Positions 46,191-64,000 of a DNA stretch of 64,000 bases are shown here, one piece after another. How positions within the stretch are numbered: position 1 is the stretch's first letter; each line of letters begins with the position of its first letter. The position numbers and the translations under genes are program-made. The stretch lies in the NCBI RefSeq assembly GCF_016728505.1, contig NZ_CP068159.1, positions 372,001 through 436,000 of the forward strand. The letters run 5' to 3'. The DNA is from Corynebacterium riegelii (GTDB lineage Bacteria > Actinomycetota > Actinomycetes > Mycobacteriales > Mycobacteriaceae). The notes below the pieces were generated by a model. That model did no database searches. It was not told the DNA's origin and worked only from the letters and a program-made list of their open reading frames with translations.

Positions 46191-46643
46191 ATGTTGCTTG
46201 CAGAAGCACTCGCCCGCCGCGCTGAGGCACAGGACCGTCTCAACGCTCTGACGCAGCGTCTGACGGAAGGCGCGCTGATCCAGGAAGGCGACACGCCTGC
46301 TGAGGACCCGACTGCCTTGCTCAACGAGGCCGCGGAGCTTCTGCAAGAGATTGAGACGCTGGTGCGTCGCATTAACCACACCAACTCGCAGACCTCGTTT
46401 GAGGGGGCGACGCTGACGGATGCGATTGCGCGTCGAGATGCACTGCTGCGCGCCCGCCGCCTGTACACGCATGTTGCGGACGCCGGCTCTGCACGCCAGA
46501 ACCGCTACTCCCGTTCAGAGGTGCGCTTCATCCCTACCGTGGATGTGGCCCAGCTGCGCACCATGGCCGATACCGCATCGGCTGAGTACCGCCAGCTAGA
46601 CACCAAGATTCAGCAGCTGAACTGGTCCACCCAGCTCATCTAG
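46191..46643 (+). CDS. DIP1984-family protein
   Basis: The 150-residue, almost wholly helical protein begins MLLAEALARRAEAQDRLNAL, with coiled-coil heptads and INHTNSQTSFEGATLTDAIA in the middle. This is the DIP1984/septicolysin-like family known from C. diphtheriae and many other bacteria. The biochemical role is unknown. AAGGAGAA precedes the ATG. The longer upstream frame is not supported. Confidence 0.87.
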   Translation: MLLAEALARRAEAQDRLNALTQRLTEGALIQEGDTPAEDPTALLNEAAELLQEIETLVRRINHTNSQTSFEGATLTDAIARRDALLRARRLYTHVADAGSARQNRYSRSEVRFIPTVDVAQLRTMADTASAEYRQLDTKIQQLNWSTQLI

Positions 46644-46661
46644 CCAGCTCATCTAGCCAGC

Positions 46662-47744
46662 TCATCTAGCCGGTCCCTCGGCATCACAGCCCTCGACAAC
46701 TTCTTCAAGTATTTGCTCGAACCGGCGCCCCGTCTCCTCCCAGGAGAACTGCGCGGCCCATGCGCGAGCAGCCTGGTCATAATCGCCGCGCATGGTTTCA
46801 ATGACGGCGTCGGTAAAGGACTCGCCGTCAGCAACAAGGCGGCCGGTCACGCCGTCCACGATGGAGTCGCGCACGCCGCCGGCGGAGGAAAACGCAACCG
46901 TTGGCACGCCGTGTTGCGCAGCCTCAATCACCGCAATCCCCCACCCCTCCTTGCGCGAAGGTAGCAGGTGCACCGCGGCACGCTGCAGAAGCGCGTGCTT
47001 GTGTTCCTCGGAGACGTGCCCGTGGAACACCACTTTGTCCGGCCCCAGACCACGGTTGTGCGCGTATTCGCGCAGCTTGTCGTCCCACCAGCCGGAGCCG
47101 ACCACATCCAGCACCGCCCCCTCAATCGCGGCGACGGCATCAATCGCAAGCTCAATACGCTTGTGCGGGACGAGGCGGGAGACGGTGATGAGGTGGACGT
47201 GGGCGTCGTCAAGCAAAGAGATGCCCCTCGCCACCGGGTCTACCCCGTTTTCCACAATGTCGATCGGCTCAGTCACACCGAGGGAGAGCAGTTCGCTTTT
47301 CGACGCCTCCGACACCGTCACATACCTCGCCCCGCGATATATCCGTGGCGCGATCTTGGACTCCAAAAACCAGCCGAAGCGGCCAATGATCGGACCCGCC
47401 ACCGGCCATTGTTCACGGTGGCAATGGTGCGTGAGCAGCACTGTTGGACGGAAAAACAGGCGGGCGAAAAACGGGATGCCGTTTTGCGTATCCACCACCA
47501 CGTCCGGCCGGTTACGCAGAATCGACAGCGGTGCCAGCACGTAGACGCCGTATTTGCCGCCGGCGCGCTCATAACGCACCCCATTTTTAGTGCTGCGCCG
47601 CGGCGCATCCGTATGCTTTGCGGTGCGGTAAATCACCTCATGGCCCTGCGCCGCCAGGTACTCGCCGACACGCTCAAGGTAGCGCTCCGAGCCACCGCCT
47701 TGCGGGTGGGTTGAATCGCGCCAGCACATCAGCAGTATCTTCAT
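46662..47744 (-). CDS. Glycosyltransferase, GT4-type (GT-B fold)
   Basis: The 360-residue product has the N-terminal GGGSERYLERVGEYLAAQGHEV loop of GT-B enzymes (quoted as GGGSERYLERVG) and the C-terminal donor site KEGWGIAVIEAAQHGVPTVAF with the E-x7-E motif (central part EGWGIAVIEA). It transfers a sugar from a nucleotide donor, probably to a lipid or wall glycan. The ATG at 47744 lies only 4 bp from the divergent methyltransferase ATG, so it is likely leaderless or starts within its neighbour. Confidence 0.88.
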   Translation of the reverse strand: MKILLMCWRDSTHPQGGGSERYLERVGEYLAAQGHEVIYRTAKHTDAPRRSTKNGVRYERAGGKYGVYVLAPLSILRNRPDVVVDTQNGIPFFARLFFRPTVLLTHHCHREQWPVAGPIIGRFGWFLESKIAPRIYRGARYVTVSEASKSELLSLGVTEPIDIVENGVDPVARGISLLDDAHVHLITVSRLVPHKRIELAIDAVAAIEGAVLDVVGSGWWDDKLREYAHNRGLGPDKVVFHGHVSEEHKHALLQRAAVHLLPSRKEGWGIAVIEAAQHGVPTVAFSSAGGVRDSIVDGVTGRLVADGESFTDAVIETMRGDYDQAARAWAAQFSWEETGRRFEQILEEVVEGCDAEGPAR

Positions 47745-47748
47745 CGGT

Positions 47749-48492
47749 ATGTACCGTACCCGCAGACTAGCCACGCTTCGACGTTCGCTGCGCCTGCTGC
47801 GCTCCTTCACTTACGAACAATTCCGCCCGCGGATCTTCTACGAAGGGTTGGCGCGCGATACGCATATGCTTATTAGCGCCCTCACGCACGACCTGACCAA
47901 CCGCAGTTTGGCCGGCCAACGCGTGCTGGATGTAGGTGGCGGACCGGGGTATTTCGCCGACGTATTTTCGGATACCCAGTACGTAAGCCTTGAGCCGGAC
48001 GTATCTGAAATGAGCGCCGCTGGCATCAGCGGCTACGGCGCCGTGCGTGGCGACGCGCTTGCACTGCCCTTTGCGGACAACACCTTCGACATCACGTTTT
48101 CCTCCAACGTGGCCGAACACATCCCCGACTGGCAGGCCATGGCGCGTGAGATGCAGCGCGTGACCCGCCCCGGCGGCCTTGTCGTTGTGAGCTACACGGT
48201 GTGGCTCGGGCCGTTCGGCGGCCACGAGACCGGCGTGTGGCCGCATTACGTGGGCGGGGAGTTTGCGCGGCGCAGGTACACGAGGGTGCATGGGCACGAG
48301 CCGAAGAATCGCTTTGGCGAAACCCTCTTCGCCGTCTCCGCCGCTGAGGGCCTGCGCTGGGCCGAGTCCACCGGCCAGCTTGCCTTCGCGTTTCCCCGCT
48401 ACCACCCGTGGTGGGCGTGGTGGCTCACTCGCGTGCCGCTGCTTCGCGAGTTCGCCGTTTCCAACCTCGTCCTTGTGTTGCAGAAGGGTTAA
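47749..48492 (+). CDS. Class I SAM-dependent methyltransferase
   Basis: The 247-residue product has the SAM-binding motif VLDVGGGPGYF near residue 65, an acidic strand YVSLEPD, DNTFDITFSSNVAEHIPD and RVTRPGGLVVVSY. This is the ubiE/COQ5-like fold with a preceding helical region. The substrate is unknown; position beside a glycosyltransferase and mycolate genes suggests an envelope glycolipid. The start is ATG 47749, and ATG codons a little downstream cannot be excluded. Confidence 0.87.
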   Translation: MYRTRRLATLRRSLRLLRSFTYEQFRPRIFYEGLARDTHMLISALTHDLTNRSLAGQRVLDVGGGPGYFADVFSDTQYVSLEPDVSEMSAAGISGYGAVRGDALALPFADNTFDITFSSNVAEHIPDWQAMAREMQRVTRPGGLVVVSYTVWLGPFGGHETGVWPHYVGGEFARRRYTRVHGHEPKNRFGETLFAVSAAEGLRWAESTGQLAFAFPRYHPWWAWWLTRVPLLREFAVSNLVLVLQKG

Positions 48493-48504
48493 AGAGACTG
48501 ACCG

Positions 48505-48535
48505 AAATATAAAAACCCTCGGATGTTTCCGAGGG
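48505..48535 (-). terminator. Orphan minus-strand terminator
   Basis: CCCTCGG and CCGAGGG (48516-48535) close a 6-nt loop, followed on the minus strand by TTTTTATATTT. No minus-strand gene ends here, because pck already has its own terminator at 48962. It may also partly serve the plus-strand methyltransferase transcript. Confidence 0.65.
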
Positions 48536-48762
48536 ATTGTCGACTCAAGGGGCCCCGCGACTAGCGAAAAAACATCAACCAGAGGCGAGTAAAAACTCAA
48601 GGTCAGAGCAATTTCATCCATAAGCCATTCCGCCTTTCCTCGTACAACGATCCATAAACAAATACTTAATAAAATCGTGATCGAGACCGAGACAGGGATC
48701 AGGTCTATGAAAGTAGCCGCCTGTTTGGACCCACAAGGCACAAGGCCACTTCAACCGACAAT
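48505..48762 (-). ncRNA. Candidate small RNA
   Basis: A promoter-like pair on the minus strand (TTGCAC at 48793-48798, 17 bp, TAATGT at 48770-48775) and an orphan intrinsic terminator at 48505-48535 bracket about 250 bp. No good reading frame stops before the hairpin. This is an inference from flanking signals only. Confidence 0.3.
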
Positions 48763-48961
48763 GTACATTACATTACATCACAGTAAGATGTTGTGCAACT
48801 TTCTGCGTTGTGCGAACTAAACCTAGTCCAAACAAAAGGGTCATGCCCTGAAACATTCCTCACACTTCACAGATAATGACGCTAGACCGGTGCCAGCGCG
48901 GTCGTATCAATTAGTCGATCGCCCCACCTTTAGTCCCCGAATAAGACCATAAGGCTAGAAA

Positions 48962-48992
48962 ATAACAAAATGCCCGCCTCACGGCGGGCATC
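48962..48992 (-). terminator. pck terminator
   Basis: TGCCCGCC and GGCGGGCA (48971-48990) pair around TCAC. On the minus strand they are followed by TTTTGTTATTTT. It lies about 105 bp past the pck stop. Confidence 0.85.
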
Positions 48993-49096
48993 CTGCAAAA
49001 TTAACAACAGATCTTGTCTGAAGTTTTCCGCTACTAAAGCTACATGACTAAATCTGCTCTAGTCAAGCATTTTCAGCAGCTCCTGACACGAAACCA

Positions 49097-50956
49097 CTAC
49101 GCCTGGCCGGTGGACTCCAGCCACTCGCGGGTCGCCTTGTTGGCGGCCTTCACGCGGTCGCCCAGGCGGCCGAGCTCGTCGAAGATCTCCTTCGGCACGC
49201 GGGCGCCGAGCTCCTCGAAGTACTCGTGAGCCTCCTCGACGTCGTTCTTCCACAGGTCAGGACCTGCGTAGAGGGCCTCCTGCACATCCTCGAACGGGAT
49301 GTCCAGGCCGGTGAGGTCGATGTCCTCTGCACGAGCGGTCAGGCCAGCGACGGTCTCGTTGCCACCAACGCGGCCCTCGATGCGGTCCACGATCCACTTG
49401 AGCACGCGGGAGTTGTCGCCGAAGCCCGGCCAGAGGAAGCGGCCGTCATCACCACGGCGGAACCAGTTGACCAGGAAGACGGCCGGCATGCGGTCGCCGC
49501 CCTTGGCACCCATGTCAATCCAGTGCTGCAGGTAGTCGCCCACGTTGTAGCCAATGAACGGCAGCATTGCCATCGGGTCGTGGCGCAGGGAGCCAACCTT
49601 GGCCTCAGCAGATGCTGCGGTCTGGCCGGAGGAGAGCATCGCACCGATCAGGGTGCCGTGGTTCCAGTTGTGTGCCTGGGTAACCAGCGGGACGGTGTCT
49701 GGGCGGCGGCCGCCGAAGAGGATCGCGTCAATCTTCACACCAGCCGGGTCGTTGTACTCCGGTGCAGCGGTCGGGCACTGCTCAATTGCCACGCAGTAGC
49801 GGGAGTTCGGGTGCGCGGCCTTGCGCTCATCGTCCGGCGTCCAGTCGTTGCCGCGCCAGTCAATGAGGTGCTCCGGTACGTCGCCGTCCATGCCTTCCCA
49901 CCACACGTCACCGTCATCAGTCAGGGCGACGTTGGTGAACAGGGTGTTGCCCGGCTCCATGGTGCGCATGGCGATCGGGTTGGAAGCGTAGTTGGTGCCC
50001 GGCGCAACGCCGAAGAAGCCGTTCTCCGGGTTGACGGCGTACAGGCCGTCCTCGCGCAGGTGCAGCCACGCAATATCGTCGCCCACAACCTCGGACTTCC
50101 AGCCTTCCAGGGTCGGGGTGATCATGGCCAGGTTGGTCTTGCCACATGCGGACGGGAATGCGCCGGTGACGTGGTAAACCTTGCCCTCTGGGGAGGTCAG
50201 CTTCAGGATGAGCATGTGCTCCGCCATCCAGCCTTCTTCCTTGCCCATGACGGATGCGATACGCAGCGCGTAGCACTTCTTGGCCAGGATGGCGTTGCCG
50301 CCGTAGCCGGAGCCGTAGGACCAGATTTCCTTGGTCTCCGGGAACTGGGAGATGTACTTCGTCTCGTTGCACGGCCATGCAACGTCTTCCTCGCCCGGCT
50401 CCAGCGGTGCGCCCACGGAGTGCAGGCAGGGCACGAAGTTGTCGCCCTGGATCTTGTCCAGTGCCTCGGTGCCCATGCGGGTCATGATGCGCATAGACAT
50501 CACCACGTAGGCAGAGTCAGTCAGCTGCACGCCCAGCTTCGGGTCCGGGTCCGTGATCGGACCCATGCAGAACGGCACGACGTACATCGTGCGGCCCTTC
50601 ATGGAGCCCTTGAAGTGCTCAAGCATCTCTTCCTTGAGCGCTTCCGGCTTCATCCAGTTGTTGGTTGGGCCCGCGCCTTCCTGCTTCTCGGTGGAGATGA
50701 AGGTGCGGGATTCCACACGTGCCACATCCGACGGGTTGGAGCGAGCGAGGAAGGAATTCGGTCGCTTTTCCTCGTTCAGTTTGATCAGCGTGCCTTTTTC
50801 AACCAGCTCGGCGGCGAGGCGGTCCCATTCTTCCTGGGAGCCATCCGCGAACACCACGCGGTCTGGGTTGAACAGTTCTACTGCGTCGTTGATCCAGGCG
50901 ATCAGTGCCTGGTTGTCCGTAGGTTGCGTGCCTTCCAATCGCTGCACTGCAGTCAT
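49097..50956 (-). CDS. pck: Phosphoenolpyruvate carboxykinase (GTP)
   Basis: The 619-residue product matches the GTP-dependent class in length and motifs: P-loop [11 protein letters not shown], metal-binding [10 protein letters not shown] and the [12 protein letters not shown] active-site Cys region. It converts oxaloacetate and GTP to phosphoenolpyruvate and CO2, the first gluconeogenic step. AAGGAG lies 5-6 bases before the ATG at 50956. Monocistronic, with a terminator at 48962. Confidence 0.97.
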
Positions 50957-51087
50957 GGTTACTCCTTGGCCTTAGTAAGTACAGTCCCTACCTCCCAACA
51001 CTACAGAGCTTTTGCTTATAGACGCAGACTTTTTCTCTCCCGGCGCGCTTACTTGCACCGATGCACGTCATGTGGACAATTGAGGCA

Positions 51088-51870
51088 ATGAATAAAGAGG
51101 CACAAAACATTTCCGAGCTGCCCTCCGGCAGGCCGATGCAAACCCAGTTTGATACCGGGTTGGATTACCCCCGTTTGGGTTCCGTGACGTTTCGCCGCGG
51201 CACGCTGACGGATAACCAAGAGGCGTTGTTTGAACAGCACTGGCCGCGGCTGGGCCGCATTTTGGCTGATGAGCTGATTGATGTAGACGCCTGGTTTGGC
51301 CGCTCTGGCCACCCCACGGTTGTGGAGATCGGCTCCGGCACCGGCACGTCTACCGCGGCGATGGCACCGCTGGAGGCGGACACCAACGTTATTGCGGTTG
51401 AGCTGTACAAGCCGGGTTTGGCCAAGCTCTTGGGCTCGGTTGTGCGTGGTGAGATTGACAACATTCGCATGGTGCGTGGCGACGGCGTTGAGGTCCTTGC
51501 CCGCATGATCGCCCCGGAGTCTTTGGACGGCGTGCGTATTTTCTTCCCGGACCCGTGGCCGAAGGCGCGTCACCACAAGCGTCGGATCATCCAGTCGGGG
51601 ACGTTGAATTTGATAGCTAGCCGTCTTAAAGCAGGAGGCGTGCTGCACGTAGCTACTGACCACGCGGATTACGCGGAGTGGATCGATGAGCTGGTGAACG
51701 TGGAGCCGAGCCTGGAGTACAAGGGCTGGCCGTGGGAGGATGCCCCGCTGTTGACGGATCGCCAGGTGATCACCAAATTTGAGGGCAAGGGCCTGGATAA
51801 GGATCACGTGATCCGCGAGTACCTCTGGCAAAAGCGCGATGAGCGCGAAGAGAAGACTGGGGAGAAGTAA
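51088..51870 (+). CDS. trmB: tRNA (guanine-N7-)-methyltransferase
   Basis: The product has about 260 residues with [15 protein letters not shown] for SAM binding and [17 protein letters not shown], the TrmB signature for tRNA contact and catalysis. It methylates G46 in the tRNA variable loop. ATG 51088 has GAGG just upstream; an in-frame ATG at 51061 is possible. It lies 6 bp ahead of the NYN gene, with which it forms an operon running into the mycolate exporter gene. Confidence 0.95.
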
Positions 51871-51876
51871 CCCTAC

Positions 51877-52545
51877 ATGGACCTGCACGACAAAATCCAC
51901 CCGTACACCCCAGGCGCAGCACCGGGGCCTGCAAGCTACCTGCTGGTTTGGGACGCGCCGAACCTAGACATGGGCTTGGGCGCAATCCTGGGTGGCCGCC
52001 CAACAGCGTCGCACCGCCCGCGTTTTGACGCTGTTGGTCGTTGGCTGGTTGGTGAGGCCACGCGTTACGGCGCAGAGCCAGAGGCGACCTTGTTTACCAA
52101 CGTCTCCCCGGCAAGTGCGGATTCGGTCCGCCCCTGGGTTGAGGCGCTGCGCAACGTGGGTTTTGCCGTGTTTGCCAAGCCGAAGGACGGCGAGGATTCT
52201 GATGTGGACCAGGACATGCTGGATCACATTCAACGCCGTGTAGACGAGGGCGTGCTGCGTGGCCTGGTGGTGGCGTCCGCAGACGGCCAGAACTTCCAAG
52301 AAGAGATCGAGCGGCTTGCGCAGACCATCCCGGTGACCGTGATCGGGTTCCACGAACACGCCGCGTGGGCGGTGAACTCCGAGCACCTGAAGTTTGTGGA
52401 CTTGGAGGACATCCCGGGCGTGTTCCGTGAGCCGCTGCCGCGCGTGAACCTGGACAACCTGCCGGTTGGTGGCGCGTGGCTGCAGCCGTTCAGACCTCTG
52501 GCGGCACTGCTTACCGGCCATGGTGCTTCGGGGGCCGGGCAGTGA
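51877..52545 (+). CDS. NYN-domain protein (putative RNA-processing nuclease)
   Basis: The 222-residue product has the NYN/PIN-like order of acidic residues: LVWDAPNLDMG near residue 25, DVDQDMLDHIQ near 107 and VVASADGQNFQEEI near 128. NYN proteins are metal-dependent RNases. It lies between trmB and the MmpL-type exporter, an order also seen in C. glutamicum. The TGA overlaps a GTG that could start the exporter gene. Confidence 0.85.
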   Translation: MDLHDKIHPYTPGAAPGPASYLLVWDAPNLDMGLGAILGGRPTASHRPRFDAVGRWLVGEATRYGAEPEATLFTNVSPASADSVRPWVEALRNVGFAVFAKPKDGEDSDVDQDMLDHIQRRVDEGVLRGLVVASADGQNFQEEIERLAQTIPVTVIGFHEHAAWAVNSEHLKFVDLEDIPGVFREPLPRVNLDNLPVGGAWLQPFRPLAALLTGHGASGAGQ

Positions 52546-52553
52546 ATGAGGGC

Positions 52554-54782
52554 ATGAGTAACGGTGCATTCGCCCAGTGGGGGCGCGTTGCGTACCGCGG
52601 TCGGCGCATCATCCCGGTGATTCTGATCGCGCTGATCGCGTTGGGGCATCTGCTGTTCGGTGTCCATTTGGGCGACCGCCTTTCCCAGGAGGGTTGGGAA
52701 GATCCGCGGGCGGATTCCACTACTGCTGCGGTGATTGAGCAGGAGACGTTTGGCCGCGACAATTCCGGCGACGTGATTGTGCTTGTCAGCGCTGCTGATG
52801 TGAATGAGCCTGCGGTATTTACTTCAGCAAACGAGCAGATCAGCGCACTGAAGGATCGTCCTGAGGTTGCTGGTATCCGCAGCTACTTTGCCACCCCGAA
52901 TGCGGCGTTGATGACGCCGGATGGGACGAAAGCGTTTGCCTCAATTGGCTTGAGTGGTGACGGTGAGCAGACGCTGAAGGATTTCCGCTCCCTTTTGCCT
53001 GCGCTTGAGGCCATCGAGATCCCAGGCGCAAAGGTGCAGATCGCCGGTGCAACCGCGGTGGCTGACGCCTTGGATAAAGGCATGGCCAACGACATCGCGC
53101 GTGCAGAAAAAGTCGGCCTGATTTTTGTGGCGATCATTTTGCTGTTCGTCTTCGGCGGCGTGATCGCGGCGGCGATGCCTTTGATTGTGGGCATTTTGTC
53201 CATCATCGGATCCCTGTCCCTGTTGGCCGTGCTTGCACAGTTCCAGCAGGTCAACATCTTCTCCCAGTCCATTATCACGCTGCTGGGCCTGGGCCTGGCC
53301 ATTGATTACGGCCTGTTTATGGTCTCCCGCTTCCGCGAGGAGCTGGATAAGGGACGCACCACCGAAGAAGCCGTGATTGAAACCACCGCCACGGCTGGCA
53401 AGACGGTGTTCTTCTCCGCGCTGATGGTGGGTGTGGCGCTGTCGGGTCTGTTCATGTTCCCGCAGGCCTTTTTGAAGTCGGTGGCATACGGTGCGATCAG
53501 CGCGGTGCTGCTCGCCGCGATCATTTCCGTGACGGTGCTTCCGGCCATGTTCGGCATGCTGGGGCCAAAGATTGATAAGTGGGCGGTGCGCCGCAGCAAC
53601 ACCAAGCCGCATCGTTTGTGGACGTCTATGCCGTCCTGGGCCATGCGCCACGCCAAATCCACCACCACCGGTGTCACGGCGTTGCTGCTGCTGGTCACGG
53701 TGCCGATTGTCACCATCACGTTCGGTGGCATCAATGAGTCGTATTTGCCGCCGCAGCAGGAGACCCGCCAAGCACAGGACGCGTTCAACGAGGTGTTCCC
53801 GGCGTACCGCACCGACCCGGTCAAGCTGGTGATCTCCGGTGCTGACAACCAGCAGCTGGGCGCGATCATGCAGCAGGCTCGCCAGGTTGAGGGCTTTGCC
53901 ACCCCGCTGGCACCTTCGCGCCCGACGACGGACGGCGTGAACGTACTTTCCGCTCCCCTGGCAGACCGCAACGGCGGCCAAGAGGTCATCGACCAGCTGC
54001 GCGCCATTGACACCCCGGAGGGCGTAGACGTCTACATTGCGGGTACCCCGGCCATGGAGGTCGAATCCATCGAGGCGCTGCTGGAACGCCTGCCATGGAT
54101 GGCGCTCTACATGATCCTGGCCACGTTCCTGTTGATGGCTATCGTGTTCCGTTCAATGATCCTGCCGGCGAAGGCCGTGATCATGAACGTGCTCGGCATC
54201 GGCGCAACGCTTGGCTTCCTCACCCTGGTCTTTGTCCAAGGCGTGGGCTCCGGCCTGCTCAACTTCACACCCGGCCCGCTGATGAGCCCGGTGCTGGTGC
54301 TGATCATCTCCATCCTGTACGGCCTATCCACGGACTATGAGGTGTTCTTGGTCTCCCGCATGGTGGAGGCACGCCACAAGGGAGCGGATACGGACACGGC
54401 GATTAAGGACGGCACCGCCCATACCGGCGGCATCATCACCGCAGCAGCCGCCATCATGATCGTGGTTGCCGCGGCGTTTGCGGCCAGCGACATCGTGATG
54501 ATGAAGTACATCGCCTACGGCATGATCTTCTCGCTGGCGCTCGACGCCACAATCATCCGACTGTTACTTGTGCCTGCTGTGATGCATTTGCTTGGAGAGG
54601 ACAATTGGTGGATGTTCGGTAGGGCGTCGGCAAGCAATAGCTCCCGCCCGGAGGGCGAAATCCCGATTGAAGACACGGTGGTGGACACGCAGCCCTACCG
54701 CAGCGGGGTGAGCGTGGATGAAGATTCCCAGCTCGTGCCGTTTTCGCAGCTGATGCGTGATCTTAAAGAGCGTGAACGCTAA
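52554..54782 (+). CDS. cmpL4: MMPL-family trehalose monomycolate exporter (CmpL4/MmpL3-like)
   Basis: The RND/MMPL protein has about 742 residues and two halves of helix plus outer domain: one helix, a porter domain, then five or six helices, repeated. The proton-relay region GLGLAIDYGLFMVSRFREE in the first half and ILYGLSTDYEVFLVSRMVEA in the second carry the Asp-Tyr pairs typical of MmpL3. Its place just before pks13-accD3 matches C. glutamicum CmpL4 (NCgl2769), which flips trehalose monocorynomycolate outward. ATG 52554; GTG 52542 is an alternative. Confidence 0.9.
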   Translation: MSNGAFAQWGRVAYRGRRIIPVILIALIALGHLLFGVHLGDRLSQEGWEDPRADSTTAAVIEQETFGRDNSGDVIVLVSAADVNEPAVFTSANEQISALKDRPEVAGIRSYFATPNAALMTPDGTKAFASIGLSGDGEQTLKDFRSLLPALEAIEIPGAKVQIAGATAVADALDKGMANDIARAEKVGLIFVAIILLFVFGGVIAAAMPLIVGILSIIGSLSLLAVLAQFQQVNIFSQSIITLLGLGLAIDYGLFMVSRFREELDKGRTTEEAVIETTATAGKTVFFSALMVGVALSGLFMFPQAFLKSVAYGAISAVLLAAIISVTVLPAMFGMLGPKIDKWAVRRSNTKPHRLWTSMPSWAMRHAKSTTTGVTALLLLVTVPIVTITFGGINESYLPPQQETRQAQDAFNEVFPAYRTDPVKLVISGADNQQLGAIMQQARQVEGFATPLAPSRPTTDGVNVLSAPLADRNGGQEVIDQLRAIDTPEGVDVYIAGTPAMEVESIEALLERLPWMALYMILATFLLMAIVFRSMILPAKAVIMNVLGIGATLGFLTLVFVQGVGSGLLNFTPGPLMSPVLVLIISILYGLSTDYEVFLVSRMVEARHKGADTDTAIKDGTAHTGGIITAAAAIMIVVAAAFAASDIVMMKYIAYGMIFSLALDATIIRLLLVPAVMHLLGEDNWWMFGRASASNSSRPEGEIPIEDTVVDTQPYRSGVSVDEDSQLVPFSQLMRDLKERER

Positions 54783-55716
54783 AGCCTGGCTGCGCTGGCT
54801 CGCACCACTTGCGGTGTTGGTGCTGGTCCTGGTGGTGTTCCGGGACCGGATGCCGTTTCTGGGCCAGGCGTGGGAGCTGGCCCGGCACGCGGACACCGGG
54901 TTTTTGTTTGGCGCGGCGCTGACCGCGAACCTGGCCATGTTTGCCATGTCAGCGGTCATGCAGATTTTGGTGAACGCGGACCGGCGCGTGACCAACCCGG
55001 TAAACACCAACGCGATTGTGTACGCCTCAAACGCCTGGTCCACGTCGGTGCCGGGAGGCCCGGCAATCTCAGCGTGGCTGACGTATCGGGTGCATCGCTC
55101 CTGGGGTGCATCCACGGGCGTGTGCGGCTGGTTTTTCGTGGTCTCGGGTGCGCTGAGCACCGTGTGGATGGCGCTGATCGGCGTAGCCGCGGTGGTGTTT
55201 CTGGGCGCTGAGCTCTCCCCCGTCACGCTCGCTGTGAGCCTCGGCGGTGCGGTGGCGATCATGGCGGCGGTGTTCTGGGCGATCATGCATCCTGCGGCGT
55301 TGAAACGCTGGACGCCGACGCGTGTGCATTCACTGATCGACCAGGTTGCGGCGATTCGCATCTCCCCCGGCTCTTTCGCACTCGCTGCGCTGTTTTCTCT
55401 GCTCAATCGGCTTTTGGACGTACTGACGCTCCTCCTGTGCGCCGCCGCCGTCACCGATTCACGCCTCAGCGTCTCCGCGATCTGCCTGGCGTTCATCATG
55501 ACCAAACTCGCCGGCGCCGCCCAGATCACTCCAGGTGGTGTAGGCACGGTTGAGCCGGTTGCGGTTGCCATGCTGGTTGCCGGGGGCTTTTCGCTTAGCG
55601 ACGCCACCGCCACCACCCTCATCTACCGCCTCATCTCATTCGCACTGATCACAGCCTTCGGCTGGGTGGTATATGCCACGACCTACGCGCGGATGGGGCT
55701 AGGCTTACGGTCATGA
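54772..55716 (+). CDS. LPG-synthase/YbhN-like integral membrane protein
   Basis: The 314-residue product has about eight membrane helices and SVPGGPAISAW plus ITPGGVGTVEPVAVAML, the paired Pro-Gly-Gly motifs of the lysylphosphatidylglycerol-synthase transmembrane family. It overlaps the exporter stop by 11 bp (GTG 54772), so both are likely made together. Family members are proposed lipid transporters or flippases. A role in mycolate or phospholipid traffic is inferred. Confidence 0.82.
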   Translation: MNAKAWLRWLAPLAVLVLVLVVFRDRMPFLGQAWELARHADTGFLFGAALTANLAMFAMSAVMQILVNADRRVTNPVNTNAIVYASNAWSTSVPGGPAISAWLTYRVHRSWGASTGVCGWFFVVSGALSTVWMALIGVAAVVFLGAELSPVTLAVSLGGAVAIMAAVFWAIMHPAALKRWTPTRVHSLIDQVAAIRISPGSFALAALFSLLNRLLDVLTLLLCAAAVTDSRLSVSAICLAFIMTKLAGAAQITPGGVGTVEPVAVAMLVAGGFSLSDATATTLIYRLISFALITAFGWVVYATTYARMGLGLRS

Positions 55717-56060
55717 AGAACGCCTCCGTCAAGACCCCCACCGCTATTGCTGCTGACTACGTTGCGATTGCCGTTTTCGCGCTCGCCGCGCGTGCCGCGC
55801 ACCAGTCCGAAACCATGCCGTTTACCTTCACCGGCTGGCTGTCCACCCTCTGGCCCTTCGCGCTTGGCGTGACGCTGGGCTGGCTGATCGTGCGCGACAA
55901 CAAGGGTGGCGCCATCTGGGGCATCACCGTGATCACCGGCCTGGTCATCTGGGGGATTCGAAACCAGGCGATTCCGCACTGGTCCTTCGTCATTGTGGCC
56001 ACCATCATGTCAGCGCTGTTGATGCTGGGGTGGCGCTTTGTGGCGTCGAAAGTAAAGTAG
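55713..56060 (+). CDS. DUF3054 membrane protein
   Basis: The 115-residue product has four hydrophobic helices and the DUF3054 features ADYVAIAVFALAARAAH, FTGWLSTLWPFALG and GITVITGLVIWGIRN. Its ATG overlaps the previous stop (ATGA). It is convergent with the small peptide gene at 56072, 11 bp away. Function unknown. Confidence 0.87.
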   Translation: MKNASVKTPTAIAADYVAIAVFALAARAAHQSETMPFTFTGWLSTLWPFALGVTLGWLIVRDNKGGAIWGITVITGLVIWGIRNQAIPHWSFVIVATIMSALLMLGWRFVASKVK

Positions 56061-56071
56061 GGCTCCCGGGC

Positions 56072-56182
56072 TTAGAACGAAGAACCCCAGTTGTACAGCG
56101 GGTTGCCGGATGCCAAGCCGTTGAAGAACCAAACGAGGCCGTTGATCAGGTCACCGAGGATATCTACAGCGCTGGAGAGCAT
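56072..56182 (-). CDS. 36-residue amphipathic, porin-like or modulin-like peptide
   Basis: The frame opens with MLSSAVDILGDLINGLVWFF and ends NPLYNWGSSF. The helical part is amphipathic, with Asp on one face and Leu, Ile, Val, Trp and Phe on the other, and lacks a signal peptide. Corynebacterial PorA/PorH and ProtX peptides have the same size and pattern and are mycoloylated on Ser. Ser3, Ser4 and the terminal Ser pair are candidate sites. AAGAAAGG lies 8 bases before the ATG, 34 bp past the accD3 stop, so it is probably the last gene of the mycolate operon. Confidence 0.65.
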   Translation of the reverse strand: MLSSAVDILGDLINGLVWFFNGLASGNPLYNWGSSF

Positions 56183-56216
56183 AGGAAAAACCTTTCTTAC
56201 TGGGGTTTCTAGAGTT

Positions 56217-57758
56217 TTACAGTGGCGAAATTGTGTGCTTCTTAGGCAGGTCGAACTCCTGCTTGGTTGCCAGTTGGCGCAGGGCACGCCGCAAAGCAAG
56301 GCGAGTCTCAGACGGCTCGATCATTGAATCGATGAAACCACGCTCAGCGGCAACATACGGAGAGGTCATGTTCTCGTCGTAGAAGTCCATGAACATCTTC
56401 TTCATTGCCTCGCGCTGCTCCGGGTCCTCAATCGCATTGAGTTGCTTGCCCTGCAATGTAATCGCTGCAGCGGCCGCGCCCATTACAGCGATCTGCGCCG
56501 TCGGCCACGCCAGGTTCAAATCGCCCGACAGGTTCTTCGAGCCCATCACCGCATACGCGCCGCCGTAGGCCTTGCGCACAATCAGCGTCACCTTCGGCAC
56601 GGTTGCCTCCACACCGGCGAACGCGAACTTCGCGCCGCGGTGAATCAGGCCTTGACGCTCCTGCTCCACGCCCGGCATGTAGCCAGGCGTATCAACGACG
56701 TAAACGATGGGGATGTTGTAGGCGTCGCACGTACGGATAAAACGCGCGCCCTTATCGGCGGCATCCGCGTCGATACACCCCGCGAGGTACATCGGGTTGT
56801 TGGCTACGAAGCCGACGGGTTTGCCGTCAATACGGCCGAAGGCACAAATGAGGTTCTCTGCGTAGTTGGATTGGATTTCAACGAGCTCTTCATCATCACC
56901 AAGCTGGACCAGAAGGTCCATCATGTCGTAACCAGCGTTGGTGTCATCCGGCAAAAACTCGTTCAGGTGGGCATCATCCAGCTCATCGTCCGCGGGCGCC
57001 GGGAAGGTTGGCACCGCATCAAACGCGGAAGTAGGCAGGTGATCTAGCAGGTCACGCACGAAATCGAAGGCCTCTTCCTCCGAATCCACAACGGCAGAAA
57101 TGTTGCCGGCCTGCTCCTGCTGGCGCGCGCCACCCAGCTCAGCGGACGTGATGTCCTCGCCCGTGACCTCACGGATCACGTTCGGGCCGGTGACGTACAT
57201 TTCCGTCTGCCCATCCACCGCAATGACAAAGTCCGTGGTCACCGGCGCATACACCGCGCCACCGGCGGACTTGCCCAGCATGATGGAAATCTGCGGGCAC
57301 CGGCCAGACAACGGCAGCTGACGGCGCGCAATCTCCGAATACATGGCCAGAGACGTCACCGCGTCCTGAATACGCGCGCCACCAGAATCCTGGATGCCAA
57401 TCACCGGGCAGCCGATCTTGATGGCAAACTCCATCACTTCGACCACCTTGCGGCCAAAGGTCACGCCAACGGAACCGCCATAGACGGTCTTGTCGTGGGC
57501 GTAGATGGCAACGGGGCGGCCGTCGATACGCCCGTAGCCCGTCACAACACCGTCGGAATACACCGCGTTTTCATCGCCTGGGGTGCGGGCCAGGGCGCCG
57601 ATCTCGACGAAGGAGCCTTCGTCCAAAAGCGCCGCAATGCGTTGGCGCGGCGTGGTAATGCCTGCGTCATCGCGCTTTTTGCGGGAGCGCTCAGAGCCCG
57701 GGTCCTGCGCCTTGTCTAGGCGCTCGCGCAAATCGGCGAGTTTTTCAGCGGTTGTCAT
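56217..57758 (-). CDS. accD3: Acyl-CoA carboxylase beta subunit of mycolate synthesis
   Basis: The 513-residue carboxyltransferase has two crotonase-like halves. GGARIQDAVTSL marks the acyl-CoA pocket of the N-half and YGGAYAVMGSK the carboxybiotin pocket of the C-half. In C. glutamicum AccD3 with AccD2, AccBC and AccE forms the long-chain acyl-CoA carboxylase that feeds Pks13. Its ATG (57758) overlaps the pks13 stop as ATGA. Symbol by gene order and family. Confidence 0.9.
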   Translation of the reverse strand: MTTAEKLADLRERLDKAQDPGSERSRKKRDDAGITTPRQRIAALLDEGSFVEIGALARTPGDENAVYSDGVVTGYGRIDGRPVAIYAHDKTVYGGSVGVTFGRKVVEVMEFAIKIGCPVIGIQDSGGARIQDAVTSLAMYSEIARRQLPLSGRCPQISIMLGKSAGGAVYAPVTTDFVIAVDGQTEMYVTGPNVIREVTGEDITSAELGGARQQEQAGNISAVVDSEEEAFDFVRDLLDHLPTSAFDAVPTFPAPADDELDDAHLNEFLPDDTNAGYDMMDLLVQLGDDEELVEIQSNYAENLICAFGRIDGKPVGFVANNPMYLAGCIDADAADKGARFIRTCDAYNIPIVYVVDTPGYMPGVEQERQGLIHRGAKFAFAGVEATVPKVTLIVRKAYGGAYAVMGSKNLSGDLNLAWPTAQIAVMGAAAAAITLQGKQLNAIEDPEQREAMKKMFMDFYDENMTSPYVAAERGFIDSMIEPSETRLALRRALRQLATKQEFDLPKKHTISPL

Positions 57759-60700
57759 CGCTTGCCTTCGATCCAATCGTTCATGTGCTTGCCAACGATG
57801 CCTACCGCCGGCTCATCCACTACCGCTAGATGGTCACCCGGCAAGTGCACAATGGTCAAATCCTGGACGATTTTGCCCCAGCCGCCGTCCTCATCAATGT
57901 GGGCGTAATTGGGCTCCAACCGGATCGCACCGTCATGCATCCGCTGCGCACGGAACAACAGCACCGGCACTGTCACATCCGCCCAGCGGGTGAAGTCGAG
58001 GTGGTTCAGGATCTGGTTATCCACAAATGACGCCCGCTGGTGTTCCAACACACCGGAGGCCAGACCGTGCTCGGAAGCGTCCGTGTTGGTGAGGAACTCC
58101 CGCAGCATCTCCATCAGCGCCTCTTCGCCTGCGGTTTCCAGCAGCTCATACGGCACCTCGAAGTCCAGGCCGTAGGTCTCCTTTGCAAACTCGGCGTAGC
58201 GGCCCCAACGTGCCTTGGTTTCCTCCATCGTGCGCGGGATCGGCACCGACGGTTGCGTGGTGTCCAGCAGCGCAATGAAATCAATACGCTCGTTGCCCAG
58301 CTGGTGTGCAACCTCGTACGCCAACGCGCCGCCGAAGGACCAGCCGGCCAGGATCACCTTCCGCTCACCCGCGATGCGCTCGATGTCACGCACGTACTCT
58401 GCCGCGCGCTCTTCGAGCGATCCTTCTCTGCGCTCAACGCCATACACCGGCACGTCATCGCCCAAGCGTCGCGCAAGCGGCGCATACACGGAGCTCGAAC
58501 CACCGGCCGGGTGGAACACAAACACCGGATTCTTATCCGGTGCACCGTCGCGGAACACGCGGATGTTGCCATCCACCGGGGTCTCAAGGCCCTCACGCAC
58601 CTTGTTGGCCAACGGCTCCAAGGTTTCCGCAGCCAGCACTTCCTCGGCACTGACCTCAATGCCGGAACGCTCCGTCAGATGCGCGGCAATCTCTTCCGCC
58701 TGCTCGTTGGTGATCTGCGGCAGCTGGCTGGTCACGCCAGCTGCCGCCGCGCCCGCGTACTTCGCCCAGGTGCCAAACACCATGCGTTCCGACGCATCAC
58801 GCGGCGCCACACCAACACCAGCAGCGCCAGCACCGCCAGCAGCTGGTTTCTCTGCAGCCGGTTTCTCTGCGGCAGGCTCAGCTGGCGCAGGCTCAGCATC
58901 AGCCTCAGGTGCCTCCGCCCTACCAGCAACGGCGTCCTCGACCATGGCAATGACGTCGGCCACGGAAGCGTCGCGAAGCGCCTGCACCTGCAGCGGAGGA
59001 ATCTGGAAGTCATTCTCAATGCGGTTCTTAATGCGCATGCCCATGAGCGAATCCAGGCCAAGGTCAATCAGCGGCAACTCATCCGGCAGATCCTCTGCCT
59101 CAAAGCCCATGGAGTCAGACACGATGGCGCGCAGGCGCTCCTCCACCGTCTCCTCTGCCGGGTTCCAGCGGAACGCCTCGATGCCGTCGGCGTCATCGGA
59201 GCCAGCGACGGAGGCGGAAAGGGCGTCTGCGTCAGAAGCCGCGACCTCGGTCACACCGGCCAGCGGTGCCGCGCCCGTGCCCAGGGTGGTGGCAAAACCT
59301 TCCGCGATCAGGGTGTCACCGTCGTACACGCGGATGCTCGCACCGCCAAGGGTGGTGGTGACCATGGTGGTCACGTCTCCGTCCGCGGGCAGGTACCCAT
59401 GCTCCTCGGTGGCAACCACGCGCGAGCCCGGAAGCACCTCCGCCGCAGCGGACTCGATGAGCTGGTACGGGCTGAACACCGAATCCGCAGGTGCGGAGAA
59501 CGCCGTCACGCCATTCGGCAGCTTCACGGAAGCCGCGCCCGACTGCGGACGCGACGTAGTCCACAGGTGGTTGCGCTGGAAGGTGGTCCGCGGGGCGTCG
59601 ATACGCTTGCCCTCACCGTAAAAACCGGTGAAGTCGACCTTCTGGCCCTGCACGTACAGCTTGGCGGCGAGATCCAGGAGGGTCTCGGCCTCATCCAGCT
59701 TGCGCTTGGTGGTAAACAGCAGCTGCGCATCCGGCTTGCCCGCAGCAAACGCGGTGTTCATCATGCCCATCAACGCAACCGGGTTCGGGGTGATCTCCAC
59801 CAGCGTGGAATGCCCTGCATCAAACGCCGCCTGGGTGGCGTCCTGGAAGTACACCGGCTGGCGCGTCATGCGCAAGAAGTACTCATCCGTGTGCACCACA
59901 GATCCAACCGGGTAGGTCACGCCCTGGTCCACGGAGGAAAACAGCGGCACCGTGATCGGGCGGGCGTGAATGCCAGCAATCTGGCCGGCGAGATCACCCA
60001 TGATGGAATCCAACATGGAGGTGTGTCCCGCGCCGCGCACGTTGAGCTTGCGGGCGAACTTCTCCTCAGCGGTGAGTTTCTCCACCAGGGCGTCGACGGC
60101 CTTGCTCGGGCCACCAACCGTGGTCATGCCCGGGCCCGCGTACACGGCGGGCTCTACGCCCTCGATGTCGACGAGCTGGTCCGCGGCCAGCTCCACCACA
60201 GCCATCGCGCCTTCCTGATCAGTGCCGGCGATCAGGGCTTCGCCCTCGCCCATCAGGCGGGCACGCTGGCAGGCAATCATCATCGCATCCGTATCAGTGA
60301 TGCCACCTGCGGCATAGGCAGCGGCGATCTCGCCCATGGACATGCCCATCACGCCAGCGGGTCGGATCCCCATGCTTGCCAGCAGGTCCGTCTGGGCGAT
60401 CTGGATGGCGGTGATGGTCACCTGGCCGGTTTGGGTGTCGTACGTCTGTGCGTCGTCCTCAACCAGCTCGACCATGGACCAGCCGGATTCGAACTTCACC
60501 ACCTCATCCAGCTCACGCATGCGGGTGGCAAACAGCTCGCTGGCCTCCATCAAACGCTTTGCCATCTTGCGGTGCTGCGAGCCAAAACCGGAGTACACAA
60601 ACACCGGCCCCAGTGCTTCCGGGGAATCCGCAACGGCGATACCTGCGCCCTTGCCCTCAGCAATCAGGCGCAATCGGCTGACCGCCTCATCCACCGTGCT

Positions 60701-62500
60701 AGCGGTAACCACTGCGGAGGAACGGCCGTGGTTTCGCTTGGCCAACGAGCGCGCGACCGGAATCAGATCACTATCCGGGCGGCCTTCCAAGAAATCAGCC
60801 AGCGTTGCTGCTGCAGCCTTCCTGCGGCTCGGCAGCATGCCGGACACCGGCAACGCGGCCACGTCTAGGCCAGCAAAGCCGGTGCTTGCAGTACCGGAAG
60901 CACCGGAAGCACCAGAAACAGCCGGATCGTCTTCGTAGTCCGCCGGATCAAAGTCCGTGACCACCACGTGTGCGTTGGTGCCGCCGAAGCCGAAGCCGGA
61001 CACGCCAGCAATCCTGCGGCCGGAGTAGCAAGGCCACTCGCGCGGATCAGCCACCACCTCAATGTGCTCAGCGTCAAAGTCCACGTAGCGGTTCGGGCCG
61101 TTGAAGTTGGCGGTTGCCGGAATCGTGTCGTGCTTGAACGCCTCCAGCACCTTGATCAGCGCCACCACACCCGCGGCGGATTCGGAGTGGCCGATGTTGG
61201 ACTTCGCAGACCCCAACAGCACCGGGTTAGCAGCCGTGCGGTCGCGTCCCAAAACACGGCCCAAAGCCGTCGCCTCAATCGGGTCACCCAGGATGGTGCC
61301 GGTGCCGTGGGCCTCAACCAGGTCCACGTCAGCCGGGTCAATGTCCGCGTCCAGGTAGGCGCGCTCCAGCACGTCCACCTGCGCATCCGGGTTCGGCGCG
61401 GTCAGGCCGTTGGAGTGGCCGTCCGAGTTGGTGGCGGAGCCCTTGATCACGGCGATGATATTGTCACCGTCCGCAATCGCGTCCGCCACGCGCTTGAGCA
61501 CCACAAAACCTGCGGCCTCGGAGCGCACGATACCGTCTGCGTCATCAGAAAACGCCTTGATCGAACCGGTCGGCGAAATCACGCCGAGCTCAGAGAACAT
61601 CAACGACGCAAACGGGTTGGCCAGCACGTTCACGCCACCAGCCAGCGCCACATCGCACTCGTGCTCACGCAGCGCGCGCACCGCGTGGTGGGTAGACACC
61701 AGCGAAGACGAGCACGCGGTGTCCACGTTCATGCTGGGCCCACGGAAGTCGAAAGCATAAGAAATGCGGTTCGGGATAATCGCACTGGACGCACCGGTCA
61801 GCGCATAGGGGTGTGCCTGCGCCGGGTCCGCACCCATCAACATCCCGTAATCATTCGCGCTGGAACCCACGAACACACCGACAGGCGTGCCGCGCAGGCT
61901 GTCGGCCGGAATGTGCGCATCCTCCAGCGCCTCCCATGCCGTTTCCAGCATGATGCGCTGCTGCGGGTCCATGTGCTGTGCCTCCAGCGGCGACAGCCCG
62001 AAGAACTCGTTGTCAAAGCTGGCGATGTCGTCCAAGTACCCGCCGTCGGTGGATTCCTCCGCCATCTTGGTTTTCAGGTACGCATCGCCTGAGTACTCGC
62101 TCCAGCGCCCGGGGGGCAGTGGGGAGGTGCTCACGCGACCGTCGATAAGCAACTGCCAAAACTCGCTCGTGTTGGCAGCGCCCGGGAAGCGGCCGGCCGC
62201 ACCCACAATCGCAATGTCGCGCTCCGCGGGGGAGCTTATGTTTGCTTGCTTGCGGCCACGTGACGCCCTTTCCGGCACCACCGTCAACGCACGCGCAAGC
62301 TCCGCGATCGTGGGGTATTGGTACGCAATCGTCGGGTCCAGGCGGCGGCCTAGGAGGGTCTCCAGCTCACCGGACAAGATGACAGCGTCCCGAGACGAAA
62401 GTCCGTAGGACTCAAGCGGCTTGACGGGGTCAACGGTATCCTCCCCCGTTGTTTTCTTTACCCACTGCTCGAGCCATTGGATCAATTCGTGTTCAGTCAT
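57755..62500 (-). CDS. pks13: Mycolic acid condensing polyketide synthase
   Basis: The 1581-residue product has the Pks13 domain order. An N-terminal carrier domain (GLSS, Ser35 or Ser36) is followed by a ketosynthase with DTACSSS (Cys263), EAHGTGT (His398) and NIGHSE (His438). An acyltransferase with GMSMGE, a C-terminal carrier domain with LGLDSLM and a thioesterase with GWSFGGA (Ser about 1388) and PGDH (His about 1557) complete it. It condenses two acyl chains into the beta-keto mycolate precursor and passes the product to trehalose. ATG 62500 is chosen over a GTG 6 bases upstream. Confidence 0.96.
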   Translation of the reverse strand: MTEHELIQWLEQWVKKTTGEDTVDPVKPLESYGLSSRDAVILSGELETLLGRRLDPTIAYQYPTIAELARALTVVPERASRGRKQANISSPAERDIAIVGAAGRFPGAANTSEFWQLLIDGRVSTSPLPPGRWSEYSGDAYLKTKMAEESTDGGYLDDIASFDNEFFGLSPLEAQHMDPQQRIMLETAWEALEDAHIPADSLRGTPVGVFVGSSANDYGMLMGADPAQAHPYALTGASSAIIPNRISYAFDFRGPSMNVDTACSSSLVSTHHAVRALREHECDVALAGGVNVLANPFASLMFSELGVISPTGSIKAFSDDADGIVRSEAAGFVVLKRVADAIADGDNIIAVIKGSATNSDGHSNGLTAPNPDAQVDVLERAYLDADIDPADVDLVEAHGTGTILGDPIEATALGRVLGRDRTAANPVLLGSAKSNIGHSESAAGVVALIKVLEAFKHDTIPATANFNGPNRYVDFDAEHIEVVADPREWPCYSGRRIAGVSGFGFGGTNAHVVVTDFDPADYEDDPAVSGASGASGTASTGFAGLDVAALPVSGMLPSRRKAAAATLADFLEGRPDSDLIPVARSLAKRNHGRSSAVVTASTVDEAVSRLRLIAEGKGAGIAVADSPEALGPVFVYSGFGSQHRKMAKRLMEASELFATRMRELDEVVKFESGWSMVELVEDDAQTYDTQTGQVTITAIQIAQTDLLASMGIRPAGVMGMSMGEIAAAYAAGGITDTDAMMIACQRARLMGEGEALIAGTDQEGAMAVVELAADQLVDIEGVEPAVYAGPGMTTVGGPSKAVDALVEKLTAEEKFARKLNVRGAGHTSMLDSIMGDLAGQIAGIHARPITVPLFSSVDQGVTYPVGSVVHTDEYFLRMTRQPVYFQDATQAAFDAGHSTLVEITPNPVALMGMMNTAFAAGKPDAQLLFTTKRKLDEAETLLDLAAKLYVQGQKVDFTGFYGEGKRIDAPRTTFQRNHLWTTSRPQSGAASVKLPNGVTAFSAPADSVFSPYQLIESAAAEVLPGSRVVATEEHGYLPADGDVTTMVTTTLGGASIRVYDGDTLIAEGFATTLGTGAAPLAGVTEVAASDADALSASVAGSDDADGIEAFRWNPAEETVEERLRAIVSDSMGFEAEDLPDELPLIDLGLDSLMGMRIKNRIENDFQIPPLQVQALRDASVADVIAMVEDAVAGRAEAPEADAEPAPAEPAAEKPAAEKPAAGGAGAAGVGVAPRDASERMVFGTWAKYAGAAAAGVTSQLPQITNEQAEEIAAHLTERSGIEVSAEEVLAAETLEPLANKVREGLETPVDGNIRVFRDGAPDKNPVFVFHPAGGSSSVYAPLARRLGDDVPVYGVERREGSLEERAAEYVRDIERIAGERKVILAGWSFGGALAYEVAHQLGNERIDFIALLDTTQPSVPIPRTMEETKARWGRYAEFAKETYGLDFEVPYELLETAGEEALMEMLREFLTNTDASEHGLASGVLEHQRASFVDNQILNHLDFTRWADVTVPVLLFRAQRMHDGAIRLEPNYAHIDEDGGWGKIVQDLTIVHLPGDHLAVVDEPAVGIVGKHMNDWIEGKR

Positions 62501-62514
62501 ACACACAGACCTTA

Positions 62515-64000
62515 TTACCGCTCCATGAATTTCTTAGCGTTTACGCGGCGAGCGATCTTGCCAGAAGAGGAACGCGCAATGCCATTCGGGGGATAGAACT
62601 CAATAACAGACGGCGCAATACCGTGCTTAGTGGTCACCGCGAGACGGATCGCATCCTCTGCGGCAGCGTCGCCATCCTCGGAAGCCGTGTCAGCGCGCTC
62701 CACCAAAAGGACCAGACGCTCCACGTCCTCACCCGGCACGGCGAACGCCGCGACGGAATCCGGACGCACGTGCTCGCTGGCCTCCTGCACGGTGGCCTCA
62801 ATGTCCTGCGGGTAGTGGTTACGGCCAGCCACAACCACCAGGTCCTTCACGCGGCCAGTGATGTAGAGGTGTCCGTTCAGGAGCACGCCCAGGTCACCGG
62901 TGTTGAGCCAGCCGTCCTTCGGCAGGTTCTCCTGCAGCGTCTCACCGATGGTGTTGCCGAAGGTCTCCGCAGTCTCCTCATCACGGTCCTGGTAGCCCTT
63001 GGCCACGTTCGCGCCGTGGATCCAGATCTCGCCCACGTTGCCTTCCGTCAGCTCATTGCGGCTCTCCGTGTCCACAATGGCGAACTTCATCAGCGGCACC
63101 GGCTGGCCGTTGGACGCGAACGGCACGCCGTCTGCGGACTCCTCCGCACGGCCCTGCGCAAGCGCCTCACGATCGAAGTAGGCGAACTTCGGACGCTCAT
63201 CCGTCTGCGGGGTAGACACAATCAAGGTGGCCTCCGCCAGACCGTAGGAAGGACGCAGCGCCTTGCGTTCCAGGCCCTTCGGGGTGAAGGTGTCCAAGAA
63301 GGCATCAACGCTGGTCTTGGTCACCGGCTCAGAGCCACAGATCACAGCCTCAACCTGGGAGAGGTCATAATCCTTCTCACCCGCGTAGCGGGCCGCAAGT
63401 TCAAGGGCGAAGTTCGGTGCCACCGTGTAGATGTGCATGTCTTCCGGATCCTCGGCACGGCGGTCCAGGCGGTCCATCCAACGCTCCGGGCGCTGGATGA
63501 AATCGCGCGGGCTGAAGATCTCAAACTCATCACCCAACACCATGGCCAGCGTTGCCAGGATAATGCCCATGTCATGGTGCATTGGCAGCCAGGACACAAT
63601 GCGCATCGGCTCCTTGATCTGCGCCGCGGTGTAGATCTGGATGACGTTGGTGACAATGGACTCATTGGTCAGCATCACGCCCGCCGGGTTCCTGGTGGAG
63701 CCAGAGGTGTACTGCAGAAACGCCGTGTTGTGTGCGGTGTCCATTGCGGTAGCCGGGTCTACTGCCGGCGGTTGGAAGGACTCAGCGAGCGTATCCGGCA
63801 ACGCATCCACAGTGATCACGCGTGGGCGCTCAGCGGCCGGCAGCACGGAGAAGTACTCACGCACCGCAGGCGCTCCCTGCTTGTTGGTCAGCACCGTCTG
63901 CGCGTGCGAGTCATGCAGCACAGCCTTCAGGTGCTGCTCATGGCCCGGCTCATTCGGGTCATACAGCGGGATCGGCACCTGGCCGGCGTAGAGCACGCCC
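62515..64000 (-). CDS. fadD32: Long-chain fatty-acid AMP ligase (5' end beyond window)
   Basis: The frame is open to the window edge, so the N-terminus is missing. Visible motifs are the P-loop-like YTSGSTRNPAGVMLTNES, RPSYGLAEATLIV, the hinge YITGRVKDLVVVAGRNHYPQD and C-terminal NGIARSSSGKIARR with the catalytic Lys. FadD32 activates meromycolate as acyl-AMP and loads it onto Pks13. The stop lies 14 bp before the pks13 start, so it heads the operon. Confidence 0.95.
   Translation of the reverse strand, partial: GVLYAGQVPIPLYDPNEPGHEQHLKAVLHDSHAQTVLTNKQGAPAVREYFSVLPAAERPRVITVDALPDTLAESFQPPAVDPATAMDTAHNTAFLQYTSGSTRNPAGVMLTNESIVTNVIQIYTAAQIKEPMRIVSWLPMHHDMGIILATLAMVLGDEFEIFSPRDFIQRPERWMDRLDRRAEDPEDMHIYTVAPNFALELAARYAGEKDYDLSQVEAVICGSEPVTKTSVDAFLDTFTPKGLERKALRPSYGLAEATLIVSTPQTDERPKFAYFDREALAQGRAEESADGVPFASNGQPVPLMKFAIVDTESRNELTEGNVGEIWIHGANVAKGYQDRDEETAETFGNTIGETLQENLPKDGWLNTGDLGVLLNGHLYITGRVKDLVVVAGRNHYPQDIEATVQEASEHVRPDSVAAFAVPGEDVERLVLLVERADTASEDGDAAAEDAIRLAVTTKHGIAPSVIEFYPPNGIARSSSGKIARRVNAKKFMER

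Follow-up and report, generated by a model that had tools for sequence, protein, structure and literature searches.

A short peptide gene conserved behind accD3 in Corynebacterium, a candidate for a mycomembrane helix

Directly behind accD3 of Corynebacterium riegelii lies a 36-codon frame that is, with near certainty, a real gene. It belongs to a peptide family present in about half of the genus, and its product is under purifying selection at the amino-acid level. In our best reading, held with about even confidence, the product is a small helical mycomembrane peptide; by analogy with known small envelope proteins, it may be O-mycoloylated on a terminal serine. How small helical proteins are selected and routed to the mycomembrane is treated as an open question in the available parts of the literature cited below. 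A synteny-found family of this breadth, with a counterpart in C. glutamicum, is a new and directly testable candidate, and it raises the possibility that lipid synthesis and protein acylation are genetically linked.

The gene occupies positions 56072–56182 (stop included) on the minus strand of the window, by which we mean the whole 64,000-nt stretch of DNA that was analysed. The frame of the 36-aa product (MLSSAVDILGDLINGLVWFFNGLASGNPLYNWGSSF) runs from an ATG at 56182 to a TAA at 56074–56072, and 34 nt separate the accD3 stop from its ATG. The stretch upstream of this ATG (56183–56204, minus strand; AAGAAAGG) resembles a ribosome site and contains aagaaagg, and GAAAGG- or AAGGAG-like stretches, read off the sequences, precede the peptide start in most relatives. 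An earlier sequence-only reading had proposed a 36-residue peptide gene here with a good ribosome site, a 34-bp spacing from accD3 and a clean stop. The frame and these three features are borne out, the spacing exactly, and the strand, which had not been given, is now assigned. On the plus strand, the same interval is stop-free but contains no ATG, GTG or TTG codon. A longer reading of 75 aa from the TTG at 56299, which overlaps accD3, was rejected, as in the relatives the ATG is the start. Short frames are abundant in this part of the window (198 of 25 aa or more overlap positions 44000–60000) and are uninformative by themselves; the frame is regarded as a gene because it is conserved.

A single-sequence search of 242 Corynebacterium genomes matched 113 of them at E up to 1, with many of the weak matches falling inside long frames, and a 23-row profile matched 108 of the 242 at E up to 0.1. 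The 42-row family profile, named A2 here, matched 126 of the 242 at E up to 0.01, with the strongest match in a genome reaching 1.4e-16. Among 200 genomes drawn evenly from the order, the sole A2 match was the window's own genome (0 of the 199 others). When the locus of the own-genome search was combined with the 30 best genus matches, an ATG-start frame was found 12–78 nt after accD3 in 30 of the 31 loci; in the remaining locus (L002), the match is weak (E 0.34) and falls within a frame of 544 aa. In addition, a scan for accD3 in named species gave 78 loci, of which two from Mycolicibacterium and nine others from outside Corynebacterium were dropped, leaving 67 that include one titled Actinomycetales. 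A frame fitting the family pattern was present within 300 nt in 47 of these 67 loci, or in 48 when L056, with its run-on end, is counted. No frame of this pattern was found in the loci of C. jeikeium, C. urealyticum, C. xerosis, C. halotolerans, C. ulceribovis, C. oculi, C. lowii and C. mastitidis, among others; as the pattern was derived from the family itself, such absences are upper bounds. The sequence-only reading had suggested looking for a conserved short frame after accD3 in other corynebacteria. The family profile finds it in 126 of the 242 genomes, and in 111 of the 121 for which both places are known it stands shortly behind accD3; this conservation together with purifying selection excludes that the frame is not conserved among close relatives.

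The neighbouring genes place the peptide within a mycolate locus. accD3 (56217–57776, minus strand) encodes an acyl-CoA carboxylase carboxyltransferase subunit (Pfam PF01039, Carboxyl_trans, E 2.5e-148) and is named from its position and homology, with no equivalog model reaching its cut-off; as listed, its frame begins at a TTG, but the actual start codon may be a few codons further in. Upstream of it, on the same strand, are a pks13-type mycolate condensase with KS, AT, two PP-binding and thioesterase domains (57755–62506) and a ligase of the fadD32/fadD2 type (62515–63999, running off the window). The ligase was assigned from its position and sequence, its name following the gene order in PMC7775120, with no family search behind it. 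In the available part of that paper, the C. glutamicum order is cg3174 (mycolate transporter), cg3175, cg3176, cg3177 (accD3), cg3178 (pks) and cg3179 (fadD2), which the gene order of the window resembles. On the other side, a DUF3054 gene (55713–56060, plus strand; PF11255, E 2.4e-21), an LPG-synthase-TM gene and an MMPL transporter gene are convergent to the peptide gene. The DUF3054 gene, whose stop is 11 nt from that of the peptide, bounds the operon.

In 22 of the 47 named-species loci, a terminator-like hairpin follows the peptide at a distance of up to 120 nt, against an expectation of 1.15 by letter shuffling; two of the 47 have one between accD3 and the peptide. In most loci, the accD3–peptide stretch falls short of the 120 nt covered behind the peptide, and the expectation derives from shuffles of the post-peptide stretch alone. 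A simple scan of the window between 55900 and 57000 detected no terminator, and the evidence for the operon end thus comes from the relatives; a promoter scan of the same interval gave a single weak promoter-like site, located within accD3, where shuffles average 0.5. Judged from the terminators in relatives, the peptide gene is probably the final cistron of the mycolate operon (fadD32-pks13-accD3-peptide); we infer that it is co-transcribed with accD3. The proposal that the peptide gene ends this operon is thus upheld as probable by the relatives, while the window itself provides no terminator for it.

Family sequences that were read are 26–39 aa long and show a consistent design. Residues 2–25 of the window peptide have a hydrophobic moment of 0.41, which a fraction of 0.0004 of 5000 shuffles reach, and AlphaFold2 predicts a helix over the same residues (mean pLDDT 81, pTM 0.43), in agreement with the amphipathic helix proposed earlier. 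D7 is invariant in all 42 aligned rows, L2 and S3 are nearly so, and 41 of the 42 have S or T at position 4; a conserved polar stripe of positions 3/4, 7, 10/11, 14 and 21/22 runs along one face of the helix. Of 35 clustered members, 34 carry a negative net charge, and none of 45 unique sequences contains Cys. As judged by eye, the peptide has no obvious signal sequence. Twenty of the 42 aligned members terminate in F and 12 in K (32 together). The window peptide itself ends in GSSF, with Ser35 in the penultimate position. These four letters are also the first four of GSSFL, the O-octanoylation motif of ghrelin cited in the available part of PMC11066868, which is probably a coincidence. L070, L071, L068 and L075 have a TTG start codon for the peptide, whose sequence begins with (M)F.

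No family in Pfam or NCBIfam matched the peptide at E up to 1, which illustrates that a conserved gene of 26–39 codons at an operon end can be absent from the family libraries searched. Two designed armadillo-repeat proteins (E 0.021 and 0.023) were the sole matches in the PDB at E up to 10. A text search for peptide strings in the open-licence literature, supplements excluded, returned no paper, and no report of the gene was found in the open-licence literature on small proteins near accD3 or the mycomembrane, although a report elsewhere is possible. Nor is the gene reported in the covered parts of transcriptome papers on C. glutamicum and on C. diphtheriae.

The sequence-only reading had likened the peptide to the mycoloylated PorA, PorH and ProtX. 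This likeness stands for size, helix and terminal serine, but not for sequence, where no match was obtained. PorA and PorH are envelope proteins and, like the peptide, very small, and those of C. glutamicum are described, in the available parts of PMC12632848 and PMC11927696, as helical and devoid of a signal sequence; the 40-aa PorACj (jk0268) is counted within the same cell-wall channel group of Corynebacterium. However, PorA and PorH are encoded between groEL2 and ppk2 (for PorA, see the accessible parts of PMC3792995 and PMC5944148), while the window peptide is encoded after accD3. The groEL2-ppk2 interval of the own genome (L135) holds separate PorH-like (55 aa) and PorA-like (50 aa) frames, at 253925 and 253714 on the minus strand and named by position, and the window peptide therefore need not be the porin. 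Against the A2 profile, no match was reported for the PorH-like frame, and the PorA-like frame scored -1.4 bits, with 174 of 240 scored shuffles equal or better. In view of the separate pair and the lack of sequence similarity, identity with PorA/PorH was rejected.

ProtX of C. glutamicum (cg2875) is likewise short (38 aa) and, by its sequence, acidic and hydrophobic, and its N-terminus MTSVFDII loosely resembles the LSSAFDLI of some family members. This resemblance is no better than that of shuffles and was rejected as homology: ProtX scored 2.8 bits against A2, with 26 of 291 scored shuffles equal or better. A ProtX query matched five of the 242 genus genomes at E up to 1 (G065, G034, G038, G214 and G023, the last a weak match with E 0.018) and gave no match in the window's own genome. 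None of the five is among the 126 A2 genomes, and the two distributions are disjoint. Beside purC, which we take to be the place of the ProtX gene, no related-looking frame was seen in the own genome among ATG or GTG frames with a ribosome-like site. Identity with ProtX was rejected on the absence of both significant profile similarity and an own-genome ProtX match.

A further likeness concerns the anchor of the S-layer protein PS2. In the available part of PMC12021427, it is described as a helical mycomembrane anchor of about 25 residues with a terminal F and a penultimate P or K, and members of the peptide family ending in LPF, PPF or VPF occur. The comparison follows this description, and it has a limit in that the anchor is the tail of a large secreted protein, whereas the peptide, of about the length of that segment, is a whole product. 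The same part of the paper speculates that terminal F, P or K help to anchor proteins in the mycomembrane; it also states that PorA and PorB lack a terminal F and that this residue is no general means of targeting.

Mycoloylation sites are reported in the available part of PMC5310785 at Ser15 of PorA, Ser56 of the 57 residues of PorH and Ser37 of ProtX, which is called penultimate. Ser35 of the window peptide is penultimate like the PorH and ProtX sites and differs from the internal PorA site. The same source finds no consensus motif and notes that PorB ends in NFSS, as PorH does, and in PMC11066868, as far as available, O-mycoloylation sites lie in surroundings rich in Ser and small residues, with no strict motif. 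With its GSSF end, the window peptide offers a serine near the C-terminus or in a flexible setting of small residues, as looked for in small O-mycoloylated mycomembrane proteins. Its calculated M+Na, unmodified and lacking formyl, is about 3899, which is within about 2 Da of ProtX (3897). Among sequences read from loci, which represent a subset of the 126 genomes, Ser is the penultimate residue of 30 out of 75 unique sequences and of 13 out of 35 clustered ones, compared with an inner Ser frequency of about 5.5%. Ser occurs within the last three residues in 16 of the 35 clustered members and is missing from the last six in 12. Ser and Thr are both entirely absent from the L070 and L071 members, and mycoloylation on these residues therefore cannot be universal in the family. 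The peptide was not seen in the covered parts of the C. glutamicum O-mycoloylome (PMC11066868), whose authors call their method not ideal for small proteins, which it detects poorly.

In the mycomembrane reading, the peptide would be a short acidic amphipathic helix exported by the same route as PorA and PorH. A transferase of the MytC/Cmt1 type would then acylate it with mycolate on a terminal serine, either the penultimate Ser35 or Ser34, with the near-invariant Ser3/Ser4 as an alternative site. The peptide would sit in the mycomembrane as a single helix or a small oligomer, and both a pore-forming and a structural or anchoring role would be compatible with this location. Its slot behind accD3 would couple the supply of the peptide to that of the lipid used on it.

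The peptide sequence would be equally compatible with an inner-membrane helix. The leading alternative, which we consider rather unlikely, is a small helix, embedded in the inner membrane or peripheral to it, that would bind the AccD3/Pks13/FadD32 complex of mycolate synthesis on its cytoplasmic face and anchor or regulate it. A single hydrophobic helix with no export signal obvious by eye would suit such a role, as would the tight linkage to accD3: in 111 of 121 genomes, the two share a strand and the peptide follows accD3 by 12–222 nt, with a median of 70. These 121 are the A2 genomes for which both places are known, the other five having no listed accD3 place, and the gaps were measured from profile-match edges and not from start codons. 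Moreover, A2 has no match in any of the 16 genus genomes that lack accD3 at 1e-180, a result that counts for the mycomembrane reading as well. However, the peptide is found 0.66–18.8 kb from accD3 in 10 of the 121 genomes, so that it persists without close coupling, which appears dispensable. The frames of seven of these ten were listed, and in one (L141), six frames from the interval between accD3 and the peptide were searched and match cellulase-family, glycosyl transferase, O-antigen-ligase and polysaccharide-biosynthesis domains. Many accD3-bearing genomes (100 of 226) also lack an A2 match at E 0.01, which weighs against the mycomembrane reading too, and the enrichment of terminal Ser, F and K would be left unexplained by this alternative. 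Blocks of 13.6–18.8 kb separate accD3 and the peptide in five genomes (L141; also L136 and L137).

A secreted surfactant-like or leaderless antimicrobial peptide, directed at neighbouring cells and not at the producer's own envelope, would share the size, the amphipathic helix and the lack of a leader visible by eye. Most such peptides are not negatively charged, in contrast to 34 of the 35 clustered members. The fixed slot behind accD3 also speaks against this role, and so do the flanking window genes, which are of mycolate, MMPL and DUF3054 type, with no evident immunity gene among those examined. We regard it as very unlikely.

Still more improbable is a frame translated for the sake of its RNA or of translation (3′ end protection, coupling or attenuation) with a functionless product. 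The hairpins directly after the frame in 22 of the 47 loci would be in line with such a function. Selection, however, acts at the amino-acid level. The pooled pN/pS was 0.27 over 17 independent pairs, picked by peptide identity, which lowers pN, and in 17 pairs picked by accD3 identity the differences at the three codon positions numbered 62/36/90 (binomial p 2.6e-5). This selection, the invariant D7 and the conserved S3 argue for a functional product. A chance frame, for which the abundance of short frames in the window would speak, can practically be dismissed in view of profile matches down to 1.4e-16, synteny, ribosome-like sites and selection.

In C. glutamicum-type genomes, the slot after accD3 holds a second peptide type. 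G065, which matches the ProtX query at 79%, that is at all non-X positions, is by this sequence match presumably C. glutamicum or a very near relative. Behind its accD3 (L154) lies a frame of 27 aa (MATIFAVLSGIDFLSVSLSYLQGFLSY), which is preceded by AGAGGAGA and followed by a hairpin readable by eye. The calculated M+Na of this 27-aa peptide is about 2966 when unmodified, and acylation would add 478, 504 or 530, the mycolate increments listed in PMC5310785. A six-row profile of this type (A3) matched 12 of the 242 genus genomes at E up to 0.1, none of them among the 126 A2 genomes. Seven of the 12 matches are within 217 nt of accD3, those of G046 and G042 are about 0.7 and 3 kb away, those of G133 and G188 are weak and lie in frames of 90–92 aa, and G125 was left out of the comparison of places. 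The A3-type peptides are 25–27 aa long, with a penultimate Ser in six of the seven sequences read. They share with the window peptide the slot after accD3 and a ribosome-like site, but comparison of the A2 and A3 profiles gave a homology probability of 4%, and homology between the two types is unsupported. Post-accD3 stretches were taken from 26 genomes, 25 of them A2-negative; when ribosome-site frames were sought by eye in these 25, an A3-type peptide was found in G205 alone, and neither type was recognised in the other 24.

The mycomembrane reading can be extended to a more specific proposal, which we put forward tentatively and hold to be somewhat less probable than its opposite. According to this proposal, the mycolate operon would end in a dedicated peptide acceptor distinct from PorA/PorH, which the C. 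glutamicum lineage would have replaced by an unrelated or very diverged peptide. If so, the lipid and its protein acceptor would come from one transcript, and each round of mycolate synthesis would bring its own mycoloylated helix. A3-type peptides occupy the slot after accD3 in L154 (G065), L155–L158, L171 and L151, and in L157 a further short frame with a ribosome-like site follows the A3-type peptide.
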